From contig NW_027506900.1 of NCBI RefSeq assembly GCF_052324685.1, positions 89,501 to 153,500 on the forward strand: DNA of 64,000 nucleotides, written 5' to 3'. Shown piece after piece: positions 3,384 to 59,700 of this stretch; within the stretch, counting starts at the first letter, position 1; each line of letters starts with the position of its first letter. The stretch is from Brachyhypopomus gauderio (lineage: Eukaryota; Chordata; Actinopteri; Gymnotiformes; Hypopomidae). The notes under the pieces are model-generated. The model was not told where the DNA came from, made no database searches, and was given only the letters and a program-made list of their open reading frames with translations. Made by a program: the position numbers and the translations under genes.

Positions 3384-3495
3384 TAGGTGAGTTGGACAGC
3401 ATCTCAAGGATCCGGTGGTGTTTCTCCAGAGTTGGTTTTCCGAGGGAAGGTGCCCCTAAGCTGATTTATTTCTTATGTTTCTGGTAGGTTCTACC

Positions 3496-4622
3496 ATGCC
3501 ATGTCAGCTGAGCTTCGTGCAGGCTCTCCTGCTCCCAGCGCTGCTCTTTCAGTACACAGCCACGCTTCCTGCTCTGGGCAGGTAGGACCGCAACTCGTCT
3601 GCAGACTGGAGCCCGTCTCTCCATCTTACATCTCATAATTCTGTTCTCCTTCGTCTTTAGAGAGTTATAGAGAGCTTTAAAAACTCTCTTCCTGTTGAGA
3701 AACTCCAGGGTAAATCTCATGGCTTATAGAAACTGTGTTAATGTGAATGATGGGTAATGGTTTAGGGTTGTGTTTGAGCATCAGTGGGTCTACTACTTTG
3801 CGGTGCATGTTTCTGCTGTCAGGTGAACTGTGTGTTTTCACTGTAGGAGTATGGAGGATGAGGATAGCCTCATAAGAGTGGACAGTCTATCCTGCAGCAG
3901 ATGTTTGTGCACTAGAGACGAAACAGATGCAGGTGGCTCCGCTGAAGAAGATCAAGGGTGGGTTGGAGATTTCCTCGCTTTCTCTATCCACACTAGCACT
4001 GTGGACGAGTCCAGCTTTATGGAACCACATGCCAGACTGTTTTTAAGAAGACACAAGTATTCTAAAAGATTAGTTGAATGATAACTCTACATGTTAATTA
4101 ATGTGCTTAAATGCCGTTTGACTGTATTGCTCAAGTCTGTGGTGAATGGGAGTGTTGTGAAAATACTGTTTATAGGCACAGGGTTGTGAAGTTGCACACC
4201 AGGCAGCTGGGAGACCTGGAGTTCACCAACCGCTACGCTGAGCTACTTAAGTCTAAAGCCAAGCTCTCCTCTCTCTGCTCCTTCCTGCGGCGTATGCAGA
4301 ACAGCAGGAGGAGGTACGTCTCAGTGCGCAGACACAACTGCAGCCGGCGCTCAGTCACTGCTTTAGAACTTTCTGGAAATATCTAACCTGTAGATACTGT
4401 CCTTTTAAACTCTGACCTCAGTGTATTACTGGAACCTCAGATTCAGCAGTTATCCTGATTCTTCTGAGTATTCGTTACAGTGCTGAGATTAAATGTTAAT
4501 CTTTTGAAGGATTTCTGTACATGCTGTTTAATCTCCCCTGTGTTGTGTGCTTTCCCAGTGGAGATACAGAGAGAGTGAACACACTGATGAAGCAGTACAT
4601 GTGTGCCACCATGTACCAGTGA
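3496..4622 (+). CDS. Small secreted peptide precursor, candidate secretin/glucagon-superfamily hormone
   Basis: Four coding exons join in frame: 3496-3581, 3847-3957, 4176-4313 and 4559-4622 (399 nt, 132 residues). All have GT-AG borders in phase 2, which supports the model. Residues 1-28 form a classic signal peptide (MPCQLSFVQALLLPALLFQY...). Exon 2 is an acidic propeptide with two close cysteines. Exon 3 encodes LGDLEFTNRYAELL, in which D, F, T, N and Y have the spacing of the N-terminus of the secretin/GHRH/VIP family (D3, F6, T7, N8, Y10). The usual His1 is missing; a single Arg (HTR) precedes QLGD, and basic pairs (RRM, RRS) follow. Exon 4 ends CATMYQ and is followed by AATAAA at 4736. 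In mammals secretin lies immediately upstream of CDHR5 in the same orientation, exactly as here. The gene model is fairly secure; the family assignment is inference. Confidence 0.55.
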
Positions 4623-4735
4623 CACCCACAACATGCTCATGTCCAACAGTGCAAGATTGAACACAATAACCTGGTTACATTGGATAACTTATCAGACATT
4701 TATGACTATGCAGGACAAACTGCTGTATACTTGAC

Positions 4736-4741
4736 AATAAA
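4736..4741 (+). terminator. Poly(A) signal of the peptide gene
   Basis: AATAAA 114 nt after the stop codon. A duplicated copy lies near 13232 in unit 2. Confidence 0.6.
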
Positions 4742-4875
4742 TATTTCTTTTATCAAATCTGTCATGACTCTCATTAGTCATACACATGGGCATGGTAGTG
4801 GGGGGAAAATTGTACCTGAATACCCAAGGCCTGAGTAGGGACAGGGGCCCATTTTGCTGGTTTACTGGCATTCAA

Positions 4876-5255
4876 ATCAAAATCAAATCAAATTTTATTT
4901 ATATAGCGCTTTTTACAACAGTTGTTGTCACAAAGCAGCTTTACAAGTGCCGAGTCCTAGCCCCCAGTGAGCAAGCCAAAGGCGACAGTGGCAAGGAAAA
5001 ACTCCCTAGTTTTTGCATGAGGAAGAAACCTTGAGAGGAACCAAGACTCAGGGGGGGAACCCATCCTCCTCTGGCCGACACCGGTCACCATGACAACAAC
5101 AACAATATAGACAGAATGTAGACAGAATGTAAAAGATGCAATAATGTCCATTTAGACAGAATATAAAAGATGTAATAATGTCCATCATGGTGTAGGCATC
5201 CGGTTAGGCAGGAGGTGGCCGGCCCAGGATGGATCGCTTGTCTCTCCTCATCTCA
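4876..5255 (+). repeat. Interspersed fish repeat
   Basis: Begins AAATTTTATTTATATAGCGC and contains the familiar fish-repeat wording GAAACCTTGAGAGGAACCAA. A second copy lies at 31441-31765 at a different position relative to the duplication, so both are independent insertions. A 5' scrap also occurs at 6717-6745. No coding capacity or terminal repeats are seen. Confidence 0.7.
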
Positions 5256-5943
5256 TTATTCCTCAAGCAGGTGGGCAGCCATGTGGAGAAATGAAACAGG
5301 GAAAATTAGCTCTGTATGAGGACATGTACAGGACAGGTAAAATTATAAACATTTCTGGAGTGTGGCAGCAACTCCGGCACTAAGTTAAATTATTACAGCC
5401 TAGCTAAAAATTTGTAAGGTCCCACTGACATTGAGAGTGTACAGGGCCCAGTGGTCATACTCACTCTACTGTGGACATCTAGTGAAAATGCTTCTGTAAG
5501 ATTGAAAACTTGTGTGTCTGGGATGCTCTGCAGAAACAAATGGTGCATAAATAGTGTAGACTTTATACAAGGACAACATAGAGGAAAGGACACAAAAAAA
5601 ACTGTTTGACATACATGTTATTCATGCTTGAGGTTATTAGACATTAGACATTTATTAGTTTATATTAGTTGATAAGATTATTCAGAACCTCATGGATTTA
5701 CTGTAACCACCATGAATAAAGGATATATTACAAAGTTAATTTGGTCTGAACTAATTAGCTTGATTACACAGTGTAACCAAGGTAACATTAGCCTAAAATA
5801 TGAAAGGTCACATAAGCTGTTTATTTTAAACATCAGCATTAGCAATTTTTTCATTACAACACATTTACATTTAGTATGTGCTATATGAATATTGGTAATA
5901 AATGCATTTATTTTAAATGACCAAAAATTGCAGTTCTGTCTCA

Positions 5944-6361
5944 TGTCTAGCCCCACCCCCACCTGTCAAGTCTGTTATTGTTTATGTGGCCATGTGATAT
6001 CTGTCAGTCTCTGTCCCTCCTTGTGTTTTGTAACCCTGCCCCTCGTTATTGTGTTCAGGTGTTCCTTGTTTTGTTTGGTGTATTTAAACCCCTTGTTTGG
6101 TCAAGTCTGTGCTGTTCATTGTTGTTTCTACCACAGTCTTATGGTCCATGTTTTTGAGTAGTCCAAAGCGTAGTCAGTGTTGTCTTTGTTGTGTTGTGTC
6201 TGAGCCTTAGTTAAGTGTTGGAAAATGTCTTTGTTTAATTCTCTGTCTAATCTGACCCTGGACTGCCTACATGACTATGATTTTGTTTTGCCCTTTATTA
6301 AACCTCACTCCTCTCAACATTTACATCCACGTCATCGCTCCACGACACCCCAGGCGTGTCA
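5944..6361 (+). mobile_element. Putative solo LTR, unit 1 copy
   Basis: A block starting near TCATGTCTAGCCCCACCC and ending near CAGGCGTGTCA has LTR-like architecture: a TATTTAAA box near 6078 and a TTTATTAAA poly(A)-type signal near 6294. No internal retroelement region adjoins it. The same block is at 30786-31208 in unit 2, so insertion predates the duplication. It is followed by a short (TCC)n run, about 6487-6513. Confidence 0.45.
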
Positions 6362-6762
6362 TTGTCAACTAGTTTAAAGAGCCTGCCAAGAACTTCCTGG
6401 AACTCTCCGAAGGATGCAGGAATCACGTGACCATCAAACCTTTTGAATTTGTGTTAGTGCTCTCAACTGCTCTGCTCAGTGAGACCTACCTCCTCCTCCT
6501 CCTCCTCCTCCTTCTGTTCTCGTGTAATTATGCCCTCTCCTCATTCTCTTCCCCCTACCCTTTTTTTTTATCATTTTTGAAAAAGTGTAATGCGGGTCAA
6601 CTCTAGCACAATATATTTGAACCTCTGGAACACGCAAAAAAATCTGTAAACCAAATCTGTAACCAAATCATATGCCAGTTATCATCTCAAAAGAAACACC
6701 TAAGACATATTTTTCAAGTCAAATTTATTTATATAACGCTTTAAATAAATGCTCCGGTTTAG

Positions 6763-6846
6763 GCTTATAGCACCTGGTATTCCCAGGCGGTCTCCCATCC
6801 AAGTACTAACCAGGCCCAAACCTGCTTAGCTTCCAAGGTCAGATGA
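6763..6846 (-). pseudogene. 5S rRNA-derived fragment (3' part)
   Basis: The reverse complement matches the 3' two-thirds of vertebrate 5S rRNA: GAAGCTAAGCAGG, TTAGTACTTGGATGGGAGAC and GGGAATACCAGGTGCTATAAGC can be read with few changes. The 5' part is missing, so it is not a functional gene. It may be a 5S pseudogene or the head of a 5S-derived SINE. It is flanked by a fish repeat scrap (6717-6745) and a (TA)n run (about 6846-6861), and is absent from unit 2. Confidence 0.85.
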
Positions 6847-6861
6847 TATATATATATATAT

Positions 6862-7483
6862 TATCCAGTTAATCGGGAATGAGATTGGGTCCGGACAGGA
6901 CTGCGTTCAGGTCCGGATCTGGACCGCGGTCCGCCAGTTGAGGACCTCTGGTTTACAGCATCCAATTAGAAGACCATTACAGTAGTCCAATCTTGACGAG
7001 ACAAAAGCATGGACCAGCTTCTCTGCATCAGCTAATGAAAGTAAATGTCTCAGCTTGGTGATATTATGTAAATGGAAAAAGGCAGCCTTAGTGACTCTGC
7101 ATATATGTGTGTCAAATGAAAAATCCAAATCAATAGTGACACCTAAGCTTTTTGCAGTAAATTTAAGTGTCACAGAAAAGCCATCTAGGGTGAGGGGAAT
7201 ATCAGCCCAATTGCTTCTAGCAGCATTGGGTCCAAGAATCAACACCTCAGTCTTATTGGAATTTATTCGAAGAAAATTAGTTTTTATGTCCTGGACGCAG
7301 TTCTCAATTTTGAGAGTAGTATTGATATCATCTGGATTAGAAAATATATACAATATATACAACTGAGTATCATCTGCGTAGCAATGGAAGCTAATACCAT
7401 GGCTACAAATGATATTGCCCAGCGGTAGCATATACAATGAGAATAATATGGGGCCCTATACAGATCCTTGTGGGATACCATAT
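6862..7483 (-). mobile_element. L2-like LINE fragment, reverse transcriptase C-terminal part
   Basis: The minus-strand frame contains the RT catalytic motif YADDTQLY, followed by LRINSNKTEVLILGP, SLGVTIDLDFSF and SSRLDYCNGLL, characteristic of L2/CR1-type LINEs in fish. Just upstream (7440-7480) GIPQGSV and GPILFSLYMLPLG can be recognised with damage. The copy is 5'-truncated and lacks the endonuclease. It lies only in unit 1, so it inserted after the duplication or was lost from unit 2. Confidence 0.85.
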
Positions 7484-8133
7484 TTTACCTTTGTATGTTC
7501 TAAACATTTGTACATTTGTATTTTTCTTGTTTTCTTACTTTTTTTCTGCTCTTTGTTGGTCTGGAATGTTTTTTACTTCCTGCAATACTTTAATAGAAAT
7601 AGCAGATAAGAGAGCAAGAGATGGCACATGTCCTATCGGTATGGATAAGAGTTCCAGTAAAGCAGTGCTGTATTTATAATCTCCACAGTGTGCTAAAGAT
7701 CTCATCTCAGCCCTAAACCATCTCAGCCAGACTTTAGAAATGCATCATACTTAGTGCTGTTTCTCTCTCTCTCTCTCTCCCTTTCATTCTTGATACATAC
7801 TTATGATGGAAACATTGGACATGTGGTATTAGTCTCTCTCTTCTTTTATGGTATGTTTCCACCGATGCCCAACAGTAAAAGCTTGAAGTAACAGTTGCTT
7901 ATGTGTATGGTACATGGTGAAGGTTTGGTACCATTGCATAATAAGTACCTCCACATAGACAGGTATGTAATTGGTGGTGGGGGGGCAGTCCATAGTGTTT
8001 ATGGCCAATAAAGCACAGATAAGGTCTCATCTGAAAGTTGGGTCTGAATCCAGCTGTGTCTTATCCGCCCACACAAAAACAGTTGCATAGATGAGAATCA
8101 GACAGCAGAGACATCCTAATGAAACACGGAGCA
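7484..8133 (+). promoter_or_regulatory. 5' flank of cdhr5 copy A
   Basis: No gene is visible. The stretch is homologous to 32160-32870 upstream of copy B, so both copies carried their promoter region through the duplication. It contains a short (CT)n tract near 7763. No TATA box convincing enough to call is seen. Confidence 0.4.
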
Positions 8134-11100
8134 ATGGATTTAAAACAGCTTAATTTTTCACTTCAAACGGTTTTCTGTCTACTGGTCATGTTCTCTACCA
8201 ACACTTTTGGTCAAACGTGTAAGTGCTGCATGTGCAAATATAATATGTTGGTGTCTAACGTGAAGGTTAAAAAATAGTCTCTAAAGTTTGATTTTGGTTA
8301 ACATTAGGTCTATTGACATACAGCTCAGTTGTAGAAGTGCACAATGAAATCATAAAGGTGTCTTTTATTGATGAAATAATTGGGCCTTTACAAAGAAACA
8401 TGTTCACTCTAAATGATGAAGAAATCTTTCACACATTTGACCTATTATAGGATTTTTTGGGTTGAATTATTTGCATTATTTGTGCTTGCAATGATGTATG
8501 TTGGGCCAATACCAACACCTCAATTAGCCTAATTAAAACAAATCAGAATTTCACGAACAGTACTGTAGTGTAGAGTAGACTTATGTTTAATAGATGTCCA
8601 GGAAATGGCTGACTGTGAATTATAATTTTGTAAATTGTAAATATTTTTGGTAAAATCTCCCACAAATTGTTTTTGTTTTAAAAGTCCATATACAGAACAT
8701 GATCTAGCAATTAAATGTGATTTTGAATCTGAAAAATTTTTTCATCTCTTGTCACAGTGTGCTCAGTTAAAGAAACCGTAGTTTCATTCAAAGAGAACAA
8801 CACTATAGGGGCTGAAGTCACTAGAGTAACCACTGATGAGGGGGTGAGCCTTACTATCACAGTCAACCCAGAGGAGGCTTTTGGCTTAAATGGCAATATG
8901 CTTGTAGCAGTAAAAATACTGGACAGAGAGGTAAGTACACCTTTAATCATTTTCACTTTTGTTTGTAATTTACAGACTGAGAGACATGAAACTGATAACC
9001 CAATACAAAATAGATTATTTTAAAATATAACTTAATATTTCATACATCTATTCTAGTCCATATATGTACTTCCTGTAGGTCTGGTTGTTTGTTTATATAT
9101 TCACCCGTCTCGTTAACATAAATGTTAGGCTTGTTATGTGTATCGTATATAATGTGTGTGTTAGTCGTATTCCGTGCTCATCTTTATTGAGTGTATACTC
9201 TGTGTGACCCGCTATGTGTGTATTAATCGTTACATGTGTATGCTAAGCGCTAACTGTGCAGAAATATTAAATAAAACCTTTGTAAATGAACGCTCTTGGC
9301 ATCCTATACACCCCCTCGCATTATATTATTAATGTTAAATTAACTAGATTATAATTAATTATTTCTGTTTCTATTGCTCCAGTTTCTATTAAATGATTAC
9401 AACCTTTAGCCTACTTGGATTAACAGCTTTATATTAATGCATTTGTTCCAGTCCCCCAAACAACCCGATCTTTTGGTCAAGATAGAGTGTAGAAAGGATG
9501 GTGAAATTCCGGTAGGTTCCAATGTTTGATCACTTGGTTTTTTTCTTTTGTAATTACAAAAGGCTTATTAAGACTGTATCTACAATCACTATTGTTATGT
9601 TGGTGTAAACTTTGATCATGATCTGCTGGTCTCTTCAGGATACTCTGCGAGTGTTTGTGGTTTTGAGAGACATTAATGATAATCCTCCAGTGTTTGCACA
9701 AAGCCAGTACAATCTGGAAGTTGATGAGGTAATGTCACACCCCACATCTACTGGGATTTGTGAGTGCTACTGGTAACTGCCTACTAAACATTTGTGTTGT
9801 TTCTTATGATTAGCTATCCAAAGTTGATACAAGCATTGGTAAAATAGAGGCTACCGACATTGATTTTGACACTCGGCTGTACTATTTTCTTCAGTCTCCA
9901 GAGGTAAAGCCTTGTAATATTTCTGGTTTTATTTCTATTTATATAATTGCTTTACTAAACAATCATGTCAAAGTCTAAACTGTTTCAAATTGTCTGATCT
10001 TAGCCTAAAAGCACTAATACCTCCGTTACTCTCCCTCCCTCTACCCTTCCCACTCTTTTTCCATCCCTTTCTCTCCCAGGATGAATTTAGGCTCAAAAGT
10101 AAATTCGAACCAGTGATTCTAACAAACAAGATCTTGTATCATGACACCACTCCAGAAGTCACATTGACTCTCTTTGCTCAGGTATGTATTATGTATTTTA
10201 GATTCATGAGTAACAGGCATTCTGAGTATAAGTGATATAAGGTCTCAAATAGGTTATTCTAATTGTGAGGTTCTCTGTCCACATACCTGTTGATCTTTAT
10301 GCCCTGAGAGACTGTTGTCTAACCCCATTTCAACTGGGCATTTCAGGACACAGCCTTGAAAACACCTCAGTCACCATCTCACACTGCCTCCACCACCATT
10401 AAAGTCACTGTTGTAGACATAAACAACCGTCCACCATGGTTTCAGCCTTGCACAGAGATCAATGTCAACTCTGCCTTATTCTGCCTCAACTCTGGCTACG
10501 AAGGGACAGTCAACTTAAATGAGCAAGTAGTGCGTACTCCCCACCATACTTCTAATAATGACACTACCCATGTTGCTGGCTGCAGTTATGAGACATGTTT
10601 AGCATATTTTTAATATCTGTCTGCCTAATATAGACCTGCTGATGGAGAGTAAAGTTTATTAGCATAGTCTGTGTTCTCCAAATAAATGAATGAGGTTGCT
10701 TCCGTAATCACAGACTGGTGCTTTGCCATTGGAGCCTGGTCCACTATATGCCATTGATGGAGACAAAGACAGGAACGATCCAATCACATATGAGATTATT
10801 GGAGGTCAGACAACAGATCTGATATTTTTATATTGTGTAATCACAATTAACTCATGTGGTCTAATGTATGTCTGCTCCGTCCAGCATCTGTTGAGTGGTT
10901 TGACTCTGTGTCTGACCTTGAGCAGGAAATGAAAATGGATTCTTCCTTATAAATACTGAGACTGGGAGTATTACTATGCAGAAACCAGTGAATGTAGCAG
11001 GACCTATCATATTGTCAGTCATGGTAAGAAAATGCTTCATTTATAAAATAGGACCACATAAATATGGTATTTATAATAAACATTTTATAAATTGCAGAGA

Positions 11101-12297
11101 TTTTATATCCCTGCATTTTTTCCAATGGTACACTGTGCTGTTCTGTATATATATTCTCATTTGTATTAAAATCAAAGAGTCAAATCACCTGTTAAAATAT
11201 GCAGATCAAAATTGGCTTCATTGGATCGTTTTGGTCAAAACAAACCAAAGATTATGTTACCACTTCTGCATATTAATCCATCCACCGTGTGAATCTAAAC
11301 TCTGCAGGGCTATGAGACACTGAACTCAGATCGGTTTGCCACCATTAGTGTAACTCTAAAGGTGGTGAAGAAGAGCTCACACCCACCTGAGTTTACCCAA
11401 CCCAGTTATGAGGGCTTCATCTCAGAAGATGCAGGTATGGGGAGCCTGGTGTTGCAGAGCAAGACCACCAACAAACCCCTCCAAGTTCAGGCAACAGATG
11501 CTGACTTTGGCAATGTAAGAATTCGACTTCTAGAAATCACATTCCGAATTAAACATTTTTCCATTCCTGTTTAGCCCAACTACGTTCTATGTTAAATCCC
11601 ACCAAATGCAAATCAGATCATAAAAACAGAAAAAGAATTACAAGACTGCACTGGAGCAATATACAAGGCATAAGGTCTTACTGTAGGCTATGTACTGTTG
11701 GATATGAAAAAAAATTTTTACAAAAATATTGCAGTATGGAGGAAATTGGGACTCAAAGGAGACTCTCAGTCTCTGGCCTTTATTGCTCAAAACAAGAAAG
11801 TCAATGACAGAAAATACGAAGGTTCGTCTAGCTAGCGTCCAGGCATAACTCCTCATAGGATTATTTATAGTAAATTTCCAGAGCATCAGACAATGACTCC
11901 AGGGGACCGGGCAAGTCTAACATGTTTAGAACGAGAATAAAGAAAAATTAATGGTTTTCTATAGGCATGATTTAACACAAATTACCTTGACTCTCTATTG
12001 TAGGGAATAAATCCTGACATTACATTTGAAGTTCCAAAAGACAGTGACTTCAGAATTACTCAAGAGGGTTTCATAATCACGACAAGGGTGGTTTCTACTG
12101 GCAATATTACATTACAAGTAAGAATTTCAACTGAACTGGATGACCTTAAATTTCTTAGTTGTTTTTCTTGTACCTTTTACAAAGATGTAAATATAGCTGG
12201 ACAATATCTGGACTTTTCTTTTTGTTATAGATACGCGTAATTGATACCACCAATGATGAATCCAGCACTGCATCTCTGTCTGTAGCAATTACTCCAG
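8134..12297 (+). CDS. cdhr5: cdhr5 copy A: cadherin-related family member 5, ectodomain only
   Basis: Twelve in-frame exons: 8134-8218, 8758-8930, 9452-9511, 9639-9728, 9814-9903, 10080-10181, 10347-10526 (or -10529), 10714-10804, 10926-11023, 11308-11514, 12004-12117 and 12231-12297. They encode a signal peptide (MDLKQLNFSLQTVFCLLVMF...) and four cadherin repeats, shown by calcium-binding motifs: LDRE, DINDNPPVF, ATDIDFDT, DINNRPPWF, DGDKDRNDP and ATDADFGN. No stop or frameshift is present. Mucin, transmembrane and cytoplasmic exons are absent because the duplication breakpoint (12817) cuts the intron after exon 12, which ends in phase 1. Copy A could give a secreted product, be non-functional, or splice onward into copy B exons, whose phase fits. 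In mammals CDHR5 pairs with CDHR2 at microvillar tips. Confidence 0.85.
9090..9310 (+). repeat. LTR-like block in cdhr5 intron 2
   Basis: Contains AAATATTAAATAAAACC near its right end and is repeated in unit 2 at about 41590-41755. It resembles the 3' part of an LTR (poly(A) signal followed by CTTGGCATCCTATA), but ends and target duplication are not clear. Confidence 0.3.
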
Positions 12298-13051
12298 GTG
12301 AGAAGGCAGGATGGCGAGTCGAGAGAAAATATTTTAAGTATAATGTTTTTTAAATGAATGGGTTAACACACAGATGACAACTGACAAACTGCATCCAACA
12401 TGCACACATTTAAACACGTTAACATTAACAAGACACATGTACAACACCGATGAGGCAAGAGAAACGTGTAACGAGTAACACAGATGAAACTACACATGTG
12501 CACACAGGCACACACAAGTGTATACGCACACACACACACAGGAGAGAGGAATCAGGGGTGGTCACCATGACAAACGTGACCTTATGCTGTGGGGACATGT
12601 GATCTCACACAGCGAACATTATAGTTATAATGAAAAACCATGAGAAATTATCCTGGTAATATAAAAAAAATCAATTTAGCCGTTTAAACTAGTCAGACTT
12701 TTAAAACACACCTTAGGTGGGGATTTTCATAAAACATCTCGTATGTTTGTGGGGCGGGGGAGGGGAAGTTTAGGACCAGGTCTCATTCTATCCAGCCAAT
12801 TCAAGAAATGCATTCTCAGACACAACTGCAGCTGGCACTCAATTACTACTTTAGAACATTCTGGAAACATCGAATCTGCACTGTAGATACTGTCTTTTTA
12901 AACTCTGACCTCAGTGTATTATTGGGACCTCAGATTCAGCAGTTATCCTGATTCTTCTGAGTATTTGTTACAGTGCTGAGATTAAATGTTAATCTTTTGA
13001 AGGATTTCTGTACATGCTGTTTCATCTCCCCTGTGTTGTGTGCTTTCCCAG

Positions 13052-13118
13052 TGGAGATACAGAGAGAGTGAACACACTGATGAAGCAGTAGTACATGTGT
13101 GCCACCATGTACCAGTGA
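13052..13118 (+). pseudogene. Orphan duplicate of the peptide gene's last exon
   Basis: Duplicate of exon 4 (4559-4622) with its acceptor (TTTCCCAG) intact. A 3-bp insertion changes AAGCAGTAC to AAGCAGTAGTAC, giving an in-frame TAG. The preceding exons are not in unit 2, so it cannot make a peptide by itself. Confidence 0.85.
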
Positions 13119-13505
13119 CACCCACAACATGCTCATGTCCAACAGTGCAAGATTGAACATAATAACCTGGTTACATTGGATAACTTGTCAGACATTTATG
13201 AATATACAGGACAAACTGCTGTATACTTGGCAATAAATATTTCTTTTATCAAATCTGTCATGACTCTCATTACACAAACATATGGGCGTGGTAGTAGGGG
13301 GAAAATTGGACCTGACTACCCAGGGCCCGAGTAGGGACAGGGGCCCATCTTGCACGTTCACTGGCATTCATAGGGGCCCACTGACATTTAGAGTGGTCCC
13401 AGTGGTTATACTCACTCTACCCTGGTGTCACGCCCAACTCCGCCCCGCTCCCTTGCCCAGCCTTGTCTCCCTGTTTCCATAGTTCCCTCTGTCTGTCAAA
13501 CCCCC

Positions 13506-18242: not shown

Positions 18243-21200
18243 TATGTACATGTGTTTGGGCCAGGGTGCAGGGCCTGGGTGGGGGGGATATGCAGCCTCT
18301 CATTTGGGGAGAGGCCAGCGAGGTGGGATAGCGAACAATATATGTTTATTTATTTATTTATTTTTTGCTTTTACTTTTTTTGTTTCTACCTCACAATCCA
18401 GCAGAGACCTGTTAGTATGAAGTATACATTACAGTTATGATATTAACAAACTGGAATGTTAAAGGTCTTACCCACCCAGCCAAGTGGAACAAGGTGTCCT
18501 CATAATTATTAAAACTGAAAACTGACATAGCATTCCTGACCGAAACCCACCTGCTCAATAAAGATGACAGTCGACTCAAAAGAAGGGGCTTCCTACAGAT
18601 ATTTCACTCTGGACTGAGTGCTAGATTCAGGGGTACAGCCATTCTCATTCGTAGAAGGATACAATTTGTGCGATCTAAGGTCATTTCTGATAAAAATGGT
18701 CATTATATTATTGTTCAAGGACGTCTTTTTAATTTACTAGTGGTATGTGTTTATGGTCCTAATTGAGATAATTTTTTCAGCACCCTTTTTTCTTTGCTTC
18801 CTTATTTGAATACTCATCAACTGATTCTAGGGATCACTCTAGCAATACAACTCTATCATGGAGTAAATCTGCTGAGGCAATAAACAGCTTTCTTCAGGCA
18901 TATGGGATGGTAGATGCATGAAGATACAGAAATCCTAAGTCTAGACAATATTCTCCGCTGCACACCAGTCATATTCTAGAATAGATTACTTTCTGTTAGA
19001 CAGAAAGCTCCTTCCCCCTCCTGAGGTCAATCACCTATGAGGGCATTGTAATTTCCAATCACAGCCCAATGACTATGACATTCAATGCTCCAAACATTGA
19101 GTTCCCACATTGTACCTGGCGGTTCAATCCACACCTTCTGTCAGAGGAGGACTTTGTTAACTTCATTTCTGCTCAAATCGATTTCTTCCTAGAAATGAAT
19201 CGGTCACCTGGCACTAGTTTTGGTAACCTTCAGGAAACAATGAAAGCATATCTACATGGACAGATTATTGCTTATAATGCCAGAGCAAACAGAAGACGGC
19301 AGGCATGTCTCAGTGAATTGACTGCATTGATCAATGATTTAGACCGCAGAAACTCAGTAGCTCCTTCTGCCGACTTGTGTAGAGAGAGAGTGGCTCTGTT
19401 AACGGAGTTTGACATTCTCTCCAAGCTGAAGAAGCTGAAGATCTATATCTTGGATCTTGTCAAGAATCTTATGAGTTTGGGGAACAGGCTAGTAAATTGC
19501 TTTGCCATCAGTTAAGGCAGTCTGCACATTTGGGCCTAATATCAGAAATTGACGCACCAGAAGGGACAATTACGGATCAGATGGGTATTAATAATCAATT
19601 TAGGAAATTCTACGAAGACCTCTACACCTCTGAAGATTTTGATGAGACACAGTTAGCCGCTTTTTTTGATAACCTCGAGATGCTAATCATAGAATCACAA
19701 GATAAAGTAAATCTCCATCACAATATCTCAATAGAGTACATTGATCAGGCAATTAAAAAGATGAAGAGTGGTAAAACTCCTGGACCAGATGTCTTCCCAA
19801 TTGAGTTTTTTTTATTATTATCGAAACTAGCCCCTCTGTTGCAGGAAGTGTATACAGAGGCACTAGAGCAAAAATCTTTACCCCCTACTATGACTCAGGC
19901 CACAATCTCAATCATTCTTAAAAAATGAAAGGACCCTTTGAAATGTGAGTCCTATCGCCCAGTGAGCTTGCTCTGCTGTGGTTATAAAATATTAACCAAA
20001 ATCTTAGCAAGTAGACTAGAGTCAGCAAAACATATGGTGGTACACCCAGATCAGACTGGGTTTATTTCAGGGCGGCAACTCTATAGTAATTTACGTAGAC
20101 TGTTTAATGTGATACATACATCAAAATCTGGATGTGCAGCAGAGGTTCTTCTATCGTTGGATGCACACAAAGCTTTTGATCAGATAGAATATAAATACCT
20201 CTTGGCAACTTTGGAAAGGTTTGGATTTGGTCCCAATTTTTGTTCCAGGGTCAAAATATTATATGCTATACCCCAGGCCTCGGTCCGCACAAATAATTAT
20301 ATTTTGCAATATTTCCACATTCATAGGAGTACCACGCAGGGATGTCCATTAAGCCCACTTTTGTTCAACTTAGTCCTAGAACCATTAGCAATGGCCCCAA
20401 GAGGTGCAAACAAAGTTATGGGGGAGGCCAGACACACGAAGTATCGCTGTATGCGGATGATCTTTTGCTTTATTATGCTAACCCTAATGACTCCATCCCT
20501 AAATCACTAGAAATCATATCAGAATTTGGTAAAAAAATTCAGGCTACAAAATTAACCTCACTAAGAGTGTGCTTTTCCCAATTAATGATCAGGCCCAAAG
20601 GATGTAATTTGATACTTACCCACTGAAAAAAACTCCAGACTCTTTTAAGTATCTTGGAGTGACAGTAACACACAGATACAAGGATCTATTTGACTATAAT
20701 TTTAAACCAGCTTTTGAACAAGTTAAACAAGACTTAAATTGCTGGTCATTTCTTCCTATATCATTAGCGGGCAGGATTAACTCAATCAAGATGACCGTCT
20801 TGCCTAGGCTGTTGTTCCTGTTTCAAACACTACTGGTTTTTATCCCTAAGTCTTTTTTTCGAGAGCTAGATATGTACATATCTGCCTTTGTTTGGAATAA
20901 AATGATCTCTCGGATAAGAAAGGCATTTTTGGAAAGACAGAAAGAAGACGGAGGTCTGGCACTTCCAAATTTTATACAGTATTATTGGGCAACTAACATT
21001 CATAAAATATTATACTGGGTTTCCACTTCCTCTGATGGACATAGATCGGTGTGGGTGGAGATAGAGCAATGGTCTGCGCATCCAGTGTCCTTATCCTCAT
21101 TAGTTTGTGCTCCGTTGCCACTTAGTAATAAACATCCCTTGGTGTGGGGTCTCCTCCGAATCTGGTCTCAATGTATATGTACTTTTAGACTTAGACAGAC

Positions 21201-21346
21201 TTTGCCATCTCTTCCAATCACAGCTAATGTACTTTTCCCTCCGTCACTCATTGATTCAACATTTAATCTCTGGGCCAATAGGGGTCGATATTTGCAGATC
21301 GTGAATTTGTTAAAAAGCATTTTTCCTCTTTTCCATTGCTCCCAGA

Positions 21347-23386
21347 CAGGGACGGACTGGCCATCGGGCATACCGGGCATTTTCCCGGTGGGCCGACGTG
21401 CTATTTGGGCCGACAGTCCTGACACTTTTTTATCTATTTATATATTGGTCTGACCGGCCCATAAAACAAGTAGATCAGTGGGCCGATTCAGATGGAGGCT
21501 GGCTGATTGACACTTGTCTGGCGAATCACATTAACACACCTTTCGCGACGCTCCTGCTGCCTGCATAAAGCATTTGGCAAAAAAAAAGTCAGCGCGAGAG
21601 TTTACCGGTCCTTAAACACGCTGGTATGCAGCCCATTGGTTATTTTCTTTACTGACACAGAGCTGTACCAATCATATCATCAAACACCCCCTCCTCCATG
21701 CGCCGGTGCGTAGTGCAATCTAACGTTGATTAACATAACGTATGTGAGTATCTGAGATGGAGAAAAAGCGCAAAGGAGGTGCAGAGAAACTACGACAAAA
21801 AAGAAGCTTGAACTTCAAGTAAACGCTGCCAAATGTATAAAAATTACTCAAATGTTTGCCACAGCAGGGCCTTCATCAGCTCCCGTGGCCGATGACAGTG
21901 GTGACGGTGGCCAGTGGACAGAAACATGTACTGAACGTGCGGTAAGCCTGACTCCTTTCAGAGCAGCTATAAAATGAGTAGGGTTAAGCAACCAAACCCT
22001 TTGCCAAATCTGATAAATTGATAAAACATCAATAAAATCATTTTGGCTAATGTTCTATGGCCGAGTTAGTTTGTATTGTAAATGCAAAAGGTAAAATAAG
22101 TGAATAACGTCCTTACCTCTATTATAAGACTTTGTGTACACTGACTGAATGAGAAAATAAGCCTATTTTAGTACTTTTATGTCTTCCATTCTGAACTAAA
22201 TAGTCTTAAATGTGAGAACACTTTTAAAACCTCCATTCACCAACAAAAACAGTACTAAGTCACTCAGCAGGCAGCATTCTATTTTCATTATTATACTATT
22301 AATATTTGTGGGGTGAGTAGTAGGCTAGGCTAAGGCTATGCTTGGTAGGAAGGGGAAATGTTTGGTAGCTTTTATGGAGGTGTTTAGGGACAATGTACAG
22401 AAATTAAAGGAAATTACACTTACTTCCAAGTGCAGGTACTTGCAGTCATGATGAAATGTATTTTTACCTTTTAAATGCAGTATCTCTGATGTTGGGTAAA
22501 CAATGGCAAATGTACTCGGTTTCTCAGTTTGAATAGTTCAACCTTTGCTTTCAATAATTTCCCGTGAACAAAAAAAAAATGGTAATTTTGTTTATTGCCT
22601 GTGCCATATGCCAATGCTGCTGTGTGCCTCTTCACAAATCTTCATAAATCCAGTATTTCTAGGTGTATATTTAAAGCCACCATTCAATTAAACTGAGTTA
22701 CTGGGCAGTTTTCTGATTTTGTTATTAGGCCATTGATTGTTTAACTTGTAAGCCTAGGTTTAGCTACTTTTTCTCCTGGATGTGTTTGGGGCCATTTAGC
22801 CTAGCTGGCTAAAGAAAATGTAGGCTCTAATTAAAGAAAATCTTATTTTTTACAATGACAATTTTTTTTGCCAGTATTATGCCAATGCAGCTGTGTGTCT
22901 GTTTTTCAGATAAAACAACAATAATTAATTCCTTATGTTGAGATAAAAAAAAAAAAACATACATTCATTCTTTTGACTGGGTAAGTTCACAATTTATTGA
23001 GTACTACTCTTGGAAGAGTTAGCATCTGATCCTTTATTTTTCATCTCTATTCTTTCTTTCTCTTGTCTTCCTCCCTGAAACACATAGGCACACCCAGTTG
23101 GATGAATGCTGTATTCATTACTGTGATGGAGTGGTTCAATATGCATTTTCATACTGTTAATAAACAAAACTTTTTGAAAGTATTTAATGATTTAAAAATT
23201 ATTTAATTTCACTCTCACTAATTCCTGTAAACTCATGGCATGGCTTAGGGTACATGGTTTTAAAGAGTGTAAACTGTTGGTATACACATTCAAAAAACTG
23301 AAAAGTGTGAAAAGCGTTATCGAGTGTGAGTGGGCCGGTCTGGTCCAAAAATGCCAGGGCCGATTTTTTGTCCCAGTCCGCCCCTG
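21347..23386. mobile_element. hAT transposon remnant, 2.0 kb
   Basis: Termini CAGGGACGGACTGG and CCAGTCCGCCCCTG are inverted with one mismatch. The 8-bp target duplication CTCCCAGA flanks it (21339-21346 and 23387-23394). A start at 21757 reads MEKKRKGGAEKLR before a stop, like the N-terminus of ZMYM/TTF-zinc-finger hAT transposases. The rest is AT-rich without an intact frame. Confidence 0.9.
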
Positions 23387-23458
23387 CTCCCAGATAATAG
23401 TGTGATAGCTGAATGGTTAGAAAGGGATGTATGACAAAAGGGAGTCGTGAGTAGACTG

Positions 23459-24456
23459 TAGCGGTGTATTCAACTATTCAACAATTTTCATAGTTGAATC
23501 TGATTCGTTACATTTTCCCTTTAGTCGAATCGTGGGTTTTTTTATCTAAAGCACTTTAAACGGGATCCCGTTCTCATTCAGGACTTTTTTCCACTTCAAA
23601 GTAAAAACCTAAAACACTCAGATAAATGAATGAACATGGTAGGTTGGCTTTATTCAGCTTTTATTTAAGTTATTCATTTTTAGTTATTTATTTGTTAATG
23701 AAACGTTAGAGAACATTAACAAAAAAAAAGTCACCGTCAGTGCACATATCGAACTGTCAGACAGGCACTGTGCAAAATGTCATAAATATTTTAAATAAAA
23801 TATGCCTGCCTGAAAATATTTTTAAAATTGCCACAAGACAGCAAAACTTGAAGTAAAAGTTCAAGCAAAAAAAAAGGTTAAAAAGCAAACAAAAAATGTT
23901 TATAGGCCTACTTACCGAAGACGCACCGCGATGAGATGACACGACTGAAATGACATGACATGACTGAAACGGCTGAACTGCTTTTTTTGTGCTTTTTTAA
24001 ATGGTATGCCATGTTGGTTGTTGTCATGTGAAATGAAAGATGTTGATGACATAACTTGCACTTTACTTTGTTTGATTCATCTTTATCTTTTTCAAAATAC
24101 TCCCACACTTTTGAAGTTTTTTTTTGTAGCCATTATAATCTCGGCAGATGCTGACTACTGTAACGTGTTCAGCTCTGCTCATTTGAATTTTGAAACTGCA
24201 GTGTGATTTATTAATGTGTAGTAAGGAAGATGCCTATTTTTAATGCGCACACATCAATTTAAAAATATTTATTAACAGAAATTAGTTTGATTTTATTTGA
24301 CAAAAGGCTATATATAACGAAAACCAAAAACATTTCATGTAAGAACTAATGCTTAGCAGCATCCTTGGGCACCCCCATGCAGTTAGAATGGTACATTCGA
24401 CTATGACGTTCATAGTCGACTATAGTCGAATCAGCGACTATTGCAGGTCACCCCTA
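23459..24456 (-). mobile_element. hAT (BED-finger type) remnant, 1.0 kb
   Basis: Ends TAGCGGTG and CACCCCTA, with 8-bp target duplication GTAGACTG at 23451-23458 and 24457-24464. A minus-strand frame ending near 23908 carries a BED zinc finger: CKLCHQHLSFH followed by AYHLKKHHK-like AYHLKKHKK. The subterminal regions are repeats of the GACTATAGTCGAATC type. Only the DNA-binding N-terminus of the transposase remains. Confidence 0.88.
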
Positions 24457-25458
24457 GTAGACTGTATTATGACATTCAGAGGATTGCACACCCTACACTC
24501 GATCCCATCAGGGCAGCTTGGAGCAAGGACTTTGGTTATGAGCTCTCAGAGGAATTCTGGAAATTGGCAGTTAGGAGGATACATTCAATGTATATATGCA
24601 TAAGACAAGGACTGCTCCAATTTAAAACATTTCATAGGCTCCACCTCTCCAGGAGCAAGCTTGCAAAAATATACCCAGAGGTTAACCCAGACTGCCCTCG
24701 ATGTCATTGGTCCCCTGCTAACTTATTTCATATGTTTACGGAATGCCCAAAGTTGATGGAATTTTGGTCTTCTATCTTTGAGACATTTTCACATATTTGC
24801 AATAAAGAAGTTACTCCTTGCTATCTTTGGTGTGGCCCCAGATAAGGTGGCAAGATCATCTGCCCAAGCGGTAGTGCTGGGCAGTATGACCAAAATTTTA
24901 TATCACTGTATTTTTCAAAATTATATCGGTTTCACTGTATTTGACAGTTTTTTCCCATGATCTGTTAACTGAGATGACCGCCCTCGGTGGAGAGTCTGCC
25001 ACGAACAGCTTAGAACACCCTCCCTGGGAAGACAGGGGAAAACACGTTAGACAAACATACAGGCACGTTAACAAAAACACAAACAGGAATATTAATGAAC
25101 AGAGGCACAAAAGGGAAAAGGGGATTTGGAATGAACACCGGGAGAGAGACAAACACTGGAACAGAAACACACACAAACGGAGCCAGGCTCCACGCCTGTA
25201 GAAGGGCTGTCAGGAAGGGCAATCCTCCCGGAGCCGCAAGCGCTGTCATAGGCGGTCCCTTCCCCGCCCTTGCTGTGAACCCTCCTTGGGGTGCAGCACG
25301 CTTGGCGCACGCGCTGGGTGCAGCGTGATCGGCGGACACTCTCGCCGCCCTCTCACTGAGCGTGCGACCAGTCTCTCTGGCAGCCCCCGTGGGGTGCGCC
25401 GCAGAGTGGTTCTGTGGATGTGCACTCTCCTCTCTCCTTGGCTCCCCTTAGGAAACTC

Positions 25459-29660: not shown

Positions 29661-30785
29661 AACAAATAGCTATCTGACTGATCAGTTCTCTTGTATTACG
29701 TTAACAAATACGAGCTTCTTGTAATTCAAGGATGAAACATGAGAGAACGCACCAAGTATAAATGCCTCTGCCGCTTGCGCAGGTTCGCGCGAGGTGTGCG
29801 GAGTCGTGCGCTACGGTTAATCCAGCCTATACATGGGCGGTGCAGCAGATTGCTCTTGTTACCACCAGCCACGACAACGTTTGCTCGACTGCATTTGCAT
29901 TAAGTGACTGTTTGGTCCACGTCCGACCTTTAAAACCCTATGTACTTCCTGACAACAGACATGGCTCCTTTCTTTGGCAAAAGTTCCTTTGGGGTATCGT
30001 CTTTTACTTCAATGTTTGGTGGAATTTCTGGTTCAGAACGTTCCCTCGTTTTCAGCAAGCTAGATTAGCGCTCTGTTGCATGTGTGCTTAGCAGCACAGC
30101 AATGAAAAGCGTCCCTTGAGAAACAAGTAACGACCGTGCTGCGTTTCGGACACGTGAAGGCTATTTAAACCTGTGTGGCCGGTATATGAAAAATTCTTAT
30201 GATAACAAAAATAAACACCGGTTTTCGGTGCGAACCGGTATACCGCCCAGCACTACCAAGAGGATTTAATTGCATTTACATACCTACTGGCCCGTCGCCT
30301 CATTCTGTTTAACTGGAAATCAGCATGCCCTCCCACACATGGTCAGTAGGTAAGTAAAATAATGCTCATCTTAAAGCTGGAGAAACTGAAAATTTCAACT
30401 AGAGTATCTGTTCAGAGATTCTATAAAGTATGGCAACCATTTCTGAATTATTTTCATTTAGAAGTCCCCACCAAAGATACTGGAATGCATATGGGTACGG
30501 TTTGACTGGGTATGGATAAACAGTTTTTGTAAGTCTTACATACGACAAATTATTCCTTTATCTGTCATTATTATTAGGATGTCACTGTGAGGGTTGTTGG
30601 TAAGGTTAGCACGGTCTTTAATGTTTAGTTTTGTTTTGTCTGTCAAATATTTTATTTACCTATTTCTTTATTTTTGAGTATGTCTTGGTGATTGTATTGT
30701 GTTTGCAGTTAGCACAAAAACCCAATAAAAACATTTGAAATAAAAAATAAATGCATTTATTTTAAATGACCAAAAATTGCACTTC

Positions 30786-31208
30786 TGTCATGTCTAGCCC
30801 CACCCCCATCTGTCAAGTCTGTTATTGTTTATGTGGCCATGTGATATCTGTCAGTCTTGGTCCATCCTTGTGTTTTGTAACCCCGCCCCTCTTTATTGTG
30901 TTCAGGTGTTCCTTGTTTTGTTTGGTGTATTTAAACTCCTTGTTTGGTCAAGTCTGTGCTGTTCATTGTTGTTTCTACTACAGTTTTATGGTCTATGTTT
31001 GTGAGTGGTCCAAAGTGTAGCCAGTGTTGTCTTTGTTGTGTTGTGTCTGAGCCTTAGTTAAGTGTTGGAAAATGTCTTTGTTTAATTCTCTGTCTAATCT
31101 GACCCTGGACTGCCTACATGACTGTGATTTTGTTTTGCCCTTTATTAAACCTCACTCCTCTCAACATTTACATCCACGTCATCGCTCCACGACACCCCAG
31201 GCGTGTCA
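30786..31208 (+). mobile_element. Putative solo LTR, unit 2 copy
   Basis: Counterpart of 5944-6361, with the same TATTTAAA and TTTATTAAA signals and only scattered differences. It marks where homology between the duplication units resumes after the L1. Confidence 0.45.
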
Positions 31209-31336
31209 TTGTCAACTAGTTTAAAGAGCCTGCCAAGAACTTCCTGGAACTTTCTGAAAGATGCAGGAATCACGTGACCATCAAACCTTTTGAATTTGTG
31301 TTAGTGCTCTCAACTGCTCTGCTCAGTGAGACCTAC

Positions 31337-31377
31337 CTCCTCCTCCTCCTCCTCCTCCTCCTCCTCCTCCTCCTCCT
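31337..31377. repeat. (TCC)n microsatellite
   Basis: TCC run of about 13 units; the unit 1 counterpart at 6487-6513 is shorter. An interspersed fish repeat (31441-31765, related to 4876-5255) sits just beyond it. Confidence 0.95.
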
Positions 31378-32870: not shown

Positions 32871-48418
<15,548 letters not shown>

Positions 48419-50775: not shown

Positions 50776-52045
50776 GAGGTAGATGGTTAACAGTCACACT
50801 CCAAACTCCACTATTGTGAAGACGAAAGAGCTGTCGGAGGACACCAGAAACTGAATTGTAGACCTGCACCGGGCTGGGAAGACTGAATCTGCAATATGCA
50901 AGCAGCTTGGTGTGAAGAAATCTACTGTGGGAGCAATAATCAGAAAATGGAAGACCTACAAGACCACTACTAATCTCCCTCGATCTGGGGCTCCACGCAA
51001 GATCTCAGCCCGTGGGGTCAAAATGATCAAAAGAACAGTGAGGAAAAATCCCAGAACCACAAGGGGGGATCTAGTGAATGACCTGCAGAAAGCTGGCACC
51101 AATGTTACAAAGGCTACCATCAGCAACACACTACGACGCCAGGGACTCAGATCTTGCAGTGCCAGACGTGTCCCCCTGCTTAAGCCAGTCCATATCCAGG
51201 CACGTCTGAAGTTTGCTAGAGAGCATTTGGATGTTCCAGAAGAGTATTGGGAGAATGTCATATGGTCAGATGAAACCAAAGTAGAACTATTTGGTAAAAA
51301 CACAACTCGTCGTGTTTGGAGGACAGTGAATGCTGACTTGCATCCAAAGAACACCATACCAACTGTGAAGCATGGGGGTGGCAACATCATGCTTTGGGGC
51401 TGTTTCTCTGCAAAGGGACCAGGACGACTGGTCCGTGTACATGAAAGAATGAATGGGGCCATGTATTGTGAGATTTTGGGTGCAAACCTCCTTCCATCAG
51501 CAAGGGCAATGAAGATGAAACGTGGCTGGGTCTTTCAGCATGACAATGATCCCAAGCACACTGCCAGGGCAACAAAGGAGTGGCTTCGTAAGAAACATTT
51601 CAAAGTCCTGGAGTGGCCTAGCCAGTCTCCCGATCTCAACCCCATCGAAAACCTTTGGAGGGAGTCTGTGTTGCCCGCCGACAGCCCCAAAACATCACTG
51701 CTCTAGAGGAGATCTGCATGGAGGAATGGGCCAACATACCAGCAACAGTGTGTGCCAACCTTGTGAAGACTTACAGAAAACGTTTGACCTCTGTCATTGC
51801 CAACAGAGGATATACAACAAAGTATTGAGATGAACTTTTGTTATTGACCAAATACTTATTTTCCACCATTATTTCCAAATAAATTCTTTAAAAGTCAGAC
51901 AAAATGATTTTCTCAATTTTTTTTTTCACATTTTGTCTCTCATAGTTGAGGTCTACCTATGATGTCAATTACCGGCCTCTCTCATCTTTGTAAGTGGGAG
52001 AACTTGCACGATTGGTGACTGACTAAATACTTATTTTCCCCACTG
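50776..52045 (+). mobile_element. Tc1-like transposon, left end missing
   Basis: The right terminal repeat CTAAATACTTATTTTCCCC then ACTG ends at 52045, followed by TA. The matching left terminus is not found upstream of the transposase, where the palindrome 50662-50744 and other sequence lie instead. Confidence 0.85.
50824..51828 (+). pseudogene. Tc1-like transposase, one stop and one frameshift
   Basis: Reads ELSEDTRN, an in-frame TGA at about 50852, then [20 protein letters not shown] (first helix-turn-helix) and [17 protein letters not shown]. The catalytic triad is visible: VIWSDET (51262-), [11 protein letters not shown] and [11 protein letters not shown]. Directly after ENLW about 7 bp are missing, shifting the frame; the ending [15 protein letters not shown] through GYTTKY is read in another frame to a TGA at 51826-51828. 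Length and motifs match about 340-residue Tc1 transposases. Confidence 0.92.
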
Positions 52046-56714: not shown

Positions 56715-59700
56715 ATGGAGGGGATAGCCTTGCAGGTCACGGCAGCATTTCTGCTGATCCTACTCCTCATTTCACTTGCAGCCAGCAACAGAAAAGACAA
56801 ATCCACTGTACCGGGTGAGTTATAACCTGTCTAATGACCATACATTATATAAGAAAATAAATCATGGAATTATCGAGAAATATTTAGATGAGATTCTGTC
56901 ACTGAGATCTCTAGCTGTGATGAGGACCGGGCATGTTGCATTATTGATCAGCGAATGTTCCAGAGAGACCTATATTAAGCACAGAATCAGTGTGTCACAT
57001 ATAGCACTAAAGTAAGGCTACATGACCTTCTACCAGGCCCCTGTAGGCTGCTGGGTCTTGGCCCAACTCTGAGCTATTCAAGATTTCTGTGGACTGGTAT
57101 TGGAACAGCTTGCAATTACTACAATGAGAGATATGGCGGTATGGTTCGGGTTTGGATTCAAGGAGAGGAGACACTTATTCTCAGCAAGTGAGTTGCCTAA
57201 AACGGATATTCCTGTCTGATGCCTCATGTATATTCATATACTGTATAGCTGCATTTAGTCCACTTGTACATTTGTGCATTCATTAAATAGCAGTATTTCA
57301 ATATCAATCTCAAGCCTGAGCATTTCGCCCAGAACATCCCGACAGACTTGTGGAACTGTGTTTCAGAGCATCTGCAGTGTATCAGGTTCTGAAGAGCAGT
57401 AACTACATTGCCAGGTTCGCCAGTAAGAAGGGACTGCGATGTATTGGCATGGATGAGCAGGGCATTGTCTTCAACAGCAATGTATTGCTTTGGAAAAAAG
57501 TACGCACATACTTTGCCAAAGGTACTTTTATCTGACCCCAGATAAATGCTTTGACAAATCTTTCTGTATTGTTAATACATTAGTTGTCACTTAATAATTA
57601 CTACACATTATTAGTTAGTCATTATTAGGTTTTAAACATTTTAAGGAGATGAAACAGTAAAAACTAAAAAAAAGATCCTGGTCCAGAGTCCTGGTGTGAA
57701 TGCACCTCCCACATCTGTGTGTCTGTATGTATGTGTATCGTCGGAGCAGCCTTAAGCGGACCTGGTCTGCAGAAGACCGTGGAGGTGTGTGTCAGTGCCA
57801 CCACCAAGCACCTCAGTGTCCTGAGTGAGCTCACAGACTCCTCCGGCCATGTGGACGTTCTGAACCTGCTCCGCTGTATTGTGGTGGACATCTCCAACAG
57901 ACTCTTCCTCCGTATCCCCCTGAATGGTCAGCCTACAAACACTGTCAGCTGCAAAACATGGCCAGTACTTTTAATGGGAATCTGTTTCTTGGAATAAGGC
58001 GAACAATACGAAACATTTCAATTGGAGCTGATTAACAACACCTGTTTTTAAACACTAGTTAGAGAGGTGTTTGACACCTGTGTTTTATAGCATGACTAAG
58101 AGAGTGTTCAGCTAGCCCTATGTTTTAAAATCTGACCTAAATCACTACAGTTTGAGAGAGTTCAGCTGTGTTTTAAAACAACTGGGCCCATTTTTTAAAG
58201 CTTATAAGTAGAACTGATCCAAAACTTCATCTAACCTGAGTAATTTTACTTCACTGTCTCCTATTTTTCCAGAGAAAGACCTGCTATTGAAAATCCACAA
58301 ATACTTCGACACCTGGCAAACAGTCCTCATCCAGCCTGATGTTTTCTTTAGACTGGGCTGGATGTGTAATAAACATCAACACGCCGCGTTAGTGCTCCAC
58401 GACATGTAGGCCAGGTAATACCAACTCTTTTTGTGTATTTGAACCAGAGCTGCTCTCTTCTAGCAAGGAACTACAAGATGAGATGGGGAACTTGGTGGAG
58501 GAAAAGCGCAAAACCATCAACGCCATGGAGAAACTGGATGAGACTGACTTTGCAACAGAGTTGATATTTGCGCAGGTGCGTTCGTGCCCTGACCACCAAA
58601 TAGACAGCACAGTTACGAAGGGTACGCTGAACAGGATGCAGCCGTGTGCTCGTCTCCTTCAGAACCATGGGGAGCTGTCGGTGGATGACGTGCGGCAGTG
58701 CGTGCTGGAGATGGTGATCGCCGCCCCGGACACGCTGTCTCTCAGTCTCTTCTTCATGTTGGTGCTGCTGAAACAACACCCAGGAGTGGAGCAGCGTCTA
58801 GTGCAGGAGATGCAGGCTCTCCTAGGTAACCCTCTGGGTTCATGGTGGCTTTTGAAGCCGTTAAGCTCCAGGAAGTGATGCCAGTGATTAGGCTCTTTTG
58901 CTCGTGGAGTAAGAGGTGCTTTTCCACGATCATATCTTAGAGCAAACCTGGCTGTGCTTTCAGGTGAGCGGGAGCTGGAGAATGATGACCTGCAGAAGTT
59001 AAGTGTGATGGAGAGCTTTATAAAGGAGTCTCTACGCTTCCATCCTGTGGTGGATTTTATTATGAGGAGAGCACTAGAAGATGACTGCATTGAGGGCTAC
59101 AAGGTGCCCAAAGGGACAAACATCATTCTGAACATTGGCCGCATGCACAAGACGGAGTTCTTCCCTAAACCCGATGAATTCAACTTGGAGAACTTTGATA
59201 TCAATGTAAGTAGTACATAGCGCACATTCTTGTGGATACATACAAACAGTAGAGCACAAAGACAAAGCAAATTTCATGTTAAACTCTTTTTAAAATATTT
59301 TCATTAATGAAAATTAAGAGAAAATATACAAAATTTAGAAAGCATCTATAAATTACATCTTTAAAAAAGCAGGCATGCACTTACAACAGAGTTAGTCGCT
59401 AGGCTTCAGAAAGAACCGAAGGGTGTATATATTTGTACATTACCCAGTAAATATATGCACATCCCATTCCCAGCAGAGCAGTGTTGAGTAGAGCAGTGTT
59501 GAGTTCTGTGCCGAATAGTCGTGTTGAGTAGGGCTGTGTTGAATGCCGTAGTCATGTTGAGTAGGGCTGTGTTGAGTGCCGTAGTCATGTTGAGTGGTCA
59601 TGTTGAGCAGGGCTGTGTTGAGTGCTGTAATCATGTTGAGTGGTCATGTTGAGCAGGGCTGTGTTGAGTGCCGTAGTCATGTTGAGTGGTCATGTTGAGC

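Follow-up and report, generated by a model that had tools for sequence, protein, structure and literature searches.

A probable teleost secretin (sct) gene between drd4 and cdhr5 in Brachyhypopomus gauderio, with a candidate fish-conserved peptide in its third exon

The gene lying between drd4 and cdhr5 in Brachyhypopomus gauderio is very probably the teleost orthologue of the secretin gene, sct. We base this assignment on its position and orientation, the phase-2 geometry of its exons, the lack of another secretin among the genome hits, and the existence of a published zebrafish sct. The preliminary description had proposed a diverged teleost secretin; as far as the gene is concerned this proposal stands, but its third exon is probably not the positional counterpart of mammalian secretin, and more likely encodes a second sct peptide that is conserved among fishes. 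Because the zebrafish gene has already been published, the present one is a further species example rather than a discovery. The locus adds another species in which sct is intact beside its expected neighbours and in which a receptor-like gene lies beside tmem37. The window, that is, the whole stretch of 64,000 nucleotides analysed here, comprises positions 89501-153500 of contig C56 in a genome of 796.5 Mb, and coordinates below refer to the window unless another contig is named.

Secretin is one of the earliest hormones to have been discovered; what became of it in bony fishes stayed an open question for decades. In 2011, it was regarded as absent from or unidentified in teleosts (PMC3084839), a view repeated in the preliminary description and outdated since December 2025, when Morash and colleagues reported zebrafish sct, si:zfos-2372e4.1 (PMC12714231). 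According to that report, the gene was identified through a gar bridge to elephant shark prosecretin together with synteny, and was aligned with orthologues from cavefish, fugu, gar, and other species (PMC12714231). The report describes only limited homology in fish sct where human secretin aligns and places a fish-conserved region of ~20 residues C-terminal to it, from which pyroglutamate-starting peptides were found in zebrafish enteroendocrine cells (PMC12714231). By this published description, zebrafish sct (ENSDARG00000099233) and the present gene are alike in their SCT chromosomal neighbourhood and in encoding a secreted prohormone, and also in having a Gln-starting peptide C-terminal to the secretin position and no clear classical secretin (PMC12714231).

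The local gene order is deaf1(+) - drd4(-) - sct(+) - cdhr5(+). Upstream of sct, the deaf1-like gene on the plus strand carries a SAND domain (65.7 bits), and an N-terminal fragment of the dopamine-receptor gene on the minus strand best matches D4 among solved structures (72.1 bits, against 66.9 for D2). Downstream and on the same strand as sct, where a cadherin gene had been claimed, the first, partial copy of a cdhr5-like gene indeed occupies 8132-12300 (+); its exons, joined, translated, and bounded by eye, contain two stretches matching the Pfam Cadherin family (68.4 bits). The candidate therefore sits where SCT is expected, between DRD4/DEAF1 and CDHR5 and on the strand of CDHR5, and the orientations agree with those around human SCT. 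The genes MUCDHL (=CDHR5), DRD4, and DEAF1 are described as common to the surroundings of SCT in human and chicken (PMC2880984).

The coding part of sct consists of four exons, all on the plus strand. Exon 1 (3496-3581) contains the start codon and a signal-peptide-like N-terminus, judged hydrophobic by eye, and ends in phase 2; exon 2 (3847-3957, phase 2-2) encodes an acidic propeptide with a CxxCxC motif; exon 3 (4176-4313), likewise phase 2-2 and of hormone type, encodes LGDLEFTNRYAELLKSKAKLSSLCSFL; and exon 4 (4559-4622), which shares its first codon with exon 3, encodes SGDTERVNTLMKQYMCATMYQ before the stop, with its coding part at 4559-4619 and the TGA at 4620-4622. When joined, they yield a product of 132 amino acids interrupted by three introns, all GT-AG and all in phase 2, and translation thereby bears out the coordinates, frame, and exons of the phased four-exon precursor described earlier. 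An AATAAA polyadenylation signal follows at 4736-4741 (+).

Splice sites were rated with a simple score that uses consensus frequencies, and are given as percentiles among the 3918 GT and 3979 AG sites of the window. The three sct donors fall between the 97.9th and 99.0th percentiles, that of exon 1 at the 99.0th. Among the acceptors, that of exon 2 reaches the 97.1st percentile and that of exon 4 the 97.7th, but that of exon 3 is mediocre (73.4th). A probable 5' UTR intron (3387-3487, +) is suggested by the splice scores of its donor, 3387 (99.8th percentile), and of its acceptor, 3488 (99.0th); since both score highly, the gene probably has an additional 5' non-coding exon and thus five exons altogether.

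The geometry of exon 3 was compared with that of this fish's own secretin-family genes by scoring candidate splice sites inside the open frame around 15 Hormone_2 hormone exons. The best acceptor is in phase 2 in 14 of these 15 exons, and the best donor in all 14 that have one, the 15th exon lacking a candidate donor; among these best sites several have low scores, and the donors of the two PACAP copies may not be real, as the frame there continues to a stop. Exon 3 starts 31 nt before position 1 and extends 23 nt beyond position 28, offsets identical to those of the GLP2-like exon of this genome, and, set against the 15 family exons, it forms a single hormone exon between phase-2 introns. Mammalian, bird, and frog SCT share with it the position between DRD4 and CDHR5, the D3, F6, T7 pattern, and a phase-2-flanked hormone exon, with the qualification that phases were compared with this fish's own family genes only. 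This geometry is stronger evidence than the motif for the putative secretin-family membership of exon 3.

The motif LGDLEFTNRYAELL was found at 4207-4248, where the preliminary description had placed it, and its residues D3, F6, T7, N8, and Y10 agree with the family pattern D/E3, F6, T7, Y/L10. Profile searches of the precursor and of exon 3 matched no Pfam family at E values up to 10, so the membership check proposed earlier gave no Hormone_2 match either. A search of PDB sequences with exon 3 returned three matches, the best of which (a PRESAN protein, E 0.84) is attributable to chance. We also built a family profile from this fish's own 15 Hormone_2 peptides, which score 17.6-60.3 bits when left out one at a time; the best window of the precursor, LGDLEFTNRYAELLKSKAKLSSLCSF, reaches about 0 bits; in 20000 shuffling trials, P was 0.026 with the propeptide and 0.011 with exon 3. 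The VIP/PHI, PACAP/PRP, and GHRH genes of this fish resemble sct in their 2-2 exon phases and in F6-T7-N8-x-Y10, as in the GHRH-like HADAIFTNSY, but differ in that their nine peptides score 33.8-60.3 bits in the leave-one-out test. The D3-F6-T7-N8-Y10 spacing invoked as an argument for the family is thus present but weak when taken alone, given the lack of a Pfam match and shuffle P values of 0.01-0.03. The gene structure and the genomic position are beyond chance; the motif by itself is unconvincing.

Searching the genome with the precursor gave seven matches at E values up to 10, comprising the four exons, a copy of exon 4, and two chance-like hits, one on contig C188 (E 3.56; seen in translation only) and one in a repeat element on contig C90 (E 5.49). 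This repeat element also occurs in the window at 33.2-34.9 kb, where one frame, which contains stops further on, reads at 33763-33861 a 16-residue stretch resembling exon 3. A derivation of exon 3 from the repeat was considered and rejected, because the protein likeness comes without DNA likeness and is chance as far as tested; it nevertheless advises caution about trusting such short resemblances. Elsewhere in the genome, two degenerate secretin-family peptides were noticed at C3:22305044-22305127 and C22:2831803-2831886, namely a GIP-like peptide with a Tyr start and a PRP copy without F6-T7, and these indicate that family hormones can diverge far in this genome.

How exons 2 and 3 correspond to the secretin exon of mammals can be read in two ways, both of which accept that the gene is sct. 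Exon 2 here stands where mammals have their hormone exon and is probably a relic of it; no Hormone_2-like window was found in this exon (shuffle P 0.44). Since the fish-conserved region is reported to lie C-terminal to the region of human secretin (PMC12714231), we infer that exon 3 corresponds to the second peptide and exon 2 to the decayed secretin exon. The alternative would make exon 3 a direct, strongly diverged descendant of the mammalian secretin exon, and exon 2 a spacer that was added or arose by rearrangement. It would account for the best family-like window falling in exon 3 and not in exon 2 (shuffle P 0.011 vs 0.44) and for the hormone-exon offsets of exon 3, but it sits poorly with exon 2, which is itself phase 2-2 and placed as the hormone exon is in mammals, and with the published C-terminal placement of the fish-conserved region (PMC12714231). 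We therefore regard it as rather improbable and favour exon 3 as the second sct peptide.

A lineage-specific gene for some unrelated secreted peptide, lying at the secretin position by chance, would fit the failure of family profiles to match, the weakness of the family similarity, and the similar resemblance of an unrelated repeat to exon 3. Such a gene would, however, have to share with SCT its position and strand, a secreted architecture, and a hormone exon of phase 2, and the zebrafish gene at this position is connected with elephant shark prosecretin through the gar bridge as reported (PMC12714231), which makes this explanation very improbable.

If the precursor is processed as its basic residues suggest, exon 3 yields the 28-residue peptide QLGDLEFTNRYAELLKSKAKLSSLCSFL (4204-4287, +; residues 76-103), preceded by a single Arg and followed by Arg-Arg. 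Its N-terminal Gln is pyroglutamate-capable, and the QLGD start emphasised in the preliminary description agrees with the pyroglutamate-starting zebrafish Sct peptides reported from the fish-conserved region (PMC12714231). Position 1 of the family pattern is Leu, preceded by this Gln, and neither His nor Tyr occurs there, as the earlier observation of a lost His1 had it; the end of the predicted peptide, SFL-RR, contains no amidation Gly and hence no amidation signal of the GKR type expected of secretin proper. Mammalian, bird, and frog SCT differ in possessing both His1 and an amidation site, and also in that the probable mature peptide here is encoded by exon 3 and includes a Cys; in frog SCT the amidation site is given as GKR (PMC3084839). 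Beyond the signal region there are five Cys (residues 45, 48, 50, 100, and 127), and these, together with the missing His1 and amidation Gly, count against a classical hormone. The helical moment of the peptide did not stand out from shuffled sequences (P 0.88 for the whole peptide, 0.57 for its core), and since two true family peptides of this genome behaved likewise (P 0.94 and 0.97), the measure carries no weight here. An AlphaFold model of the precursor, computed without an alignment, was discarded as being of no use for the signal peptide or the fold (mean pLDDT 38.5, pTM 0.29).

A genome search for Hormone_2 (PF00123) placed 15 of 41 matches above the cut-off, with 150 of 365 candidates scored. 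By sequence, we take these 15 to represent two gcg genes, one gip, one ghrh, two vip, and two pacap. No separate secretin gene was found among them, and none on C56; a true secretin elsewhere in the genome, named beforehand as a finding that would speak against the proposal, thus did not appear among the above-cut-off hits. With 150 of 365 candidates scored, the exclusion of another secretin is strong but not complete.

A teleost secretin receptor was reportedly described as an orphan by Cardoso in 2014. Our search for the HRM domain gave 55 genome matches at E values up to 1. From one of these, at ~18.77 Mb of contig C4, manual extension gave 409 amino acids of a receptor, with both termini missing and the HRM and 7tm_2 domains nearly complete. 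Among solved structures, the closest match to this sequence is the human secretin receptor (376.6 bits), followed by PAC1 (361.7), VPAC2 (338.2), VPAC1 (337.1), and GHRHR (295.4); for a fragment of 81 residues, PAC1 scores 89.3 bits and the secretin receptor 88.3. Given this narrow lead of PAC1 on the fragment and a 15-bit lead of the secretin receptor overall, sequence alone does not decide the identity of the receptor. The receptor gene adjoins TMEM37 (205.3 bits) and an exon of acyl-CoA-binding protein (ACBP) within C4 ~18,758,400-18,769,200, and SCTR is reported to be close to Tmem37 in every species analysed in that study (PMC3084839). The C4 gene is thus secretin-receptor-like and lies in an apparently conserved SCTR neighbourhood. 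In zebrafish, sctr is placed in intestinal best4+ cells, which are CFTR-high according to the abstract of a preprint (PMC12724568).

Taken together, these observations suggest how the gene may act. The sct product would be a secreted prohormone that loses its signal peptide; cleavage after Arg75 and before Arg104-Arg105 would free the 28-residue exon 3 peptide, whose Gln76 would cyclise to pyroglutamate. As a divergent hormone of the secretin family, this peptide would represent the second, C-terminal product of sct, the one conserved among fishes. Released from enteroendocrine cells, it might signal through the retained Sctr on the gut epithelium and thereby raise cAMP and the secretion of bicarbonate or chloride. 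The pairing of the exon 3 peptide with Sctr is offered tentatively, as we consider it somewhat less probable than its opposite. Chicken SCT, as described by Wang 2012 and cited in the zebrafish report, similarly has room for two peptides in its precursor, but differs in that both of its peptides activate SCTR (PMC12714231); here the exon 3 peptide alone looks family-like. A bolder version takes pGlu-LGDLEFTNRYAELLKSKAKLSSLCSFL, ending in a free acid, for the true fish Sctr ligand: a secretin-family hormone with a pyroglutamate cap in place of His1 and amidation, descended from the second of the two peptides that an ancestral sct encoded; we consider this doubtful. If a His1-less peptide did activate Sctr, models of class B receptor activation would need revising, and sct and the receptor-like gene form a concrete, testable ligand-receptor pair.

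Part of the locus has been duplicated in tandem. The unit, 8.5 kb long, runs from sct intron 3 into cdhr5 and is present at 4329-12818 and again at 12817-45125: intron 3 sequence from 4329 onwards recurs from 12817, and the last cdhr5 position matched, 12818, corresponds to 45125 in the copy, so that the second unit directly follows the first in head-to-tail orientation. The match consists of 11 pieces of 83.7-96.6% identity (mostly 88-97%) with insertions between them. Because the piece pairing 5897-6512 with 30746-31359 breaks the order, some pieces may be dispersed repeats. The second unit begins with a copy of sct intron 3, exon 4, and the 3' UTR (12817-13370, +; 92.8% identical), in which exon 4 has an additional in-frame stop, TAG, and is not preceded by exons 1-3, and continues with cdhr5-like exons at 34948-45125 (+; 88.6-91.5% identity to 8422-12818 in three pieces). 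As a result of the duplication the 5' part of cdhr5 is present twice; the main sct gene is undisturbed.

This broken second exon 4, the loss of His1 and of the amidation signal, and the weak acceptor of exon 3 might be taken for signs of a decaying sct relic without a functional peptide, a reading that we consider highly unlikely because the frame stays open through four phased exons, a receptor-like gene has been kept, and zebrafish sct is reported to yield processed pyroglutamyl peptides (PMC12714231).

Several other features were noted in the window. A minisatellite of ~45 copies of an 18-bp unit, CATCCTCATTACAGCACA, occupies 188-996 and is open in several frames. By eye, open reading frames at 19000-24842 resemble LINE-type reverse transcriptase, those at 37714-41371 an LTR-retroelement polyprotein, and those at 50855-51703 a Tc1-like transposase. 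Cytochrome P450 exons are present at 58888-60003, the first of which best matches aromatase, CYP19A1, in the solved-structure search (122 bits).
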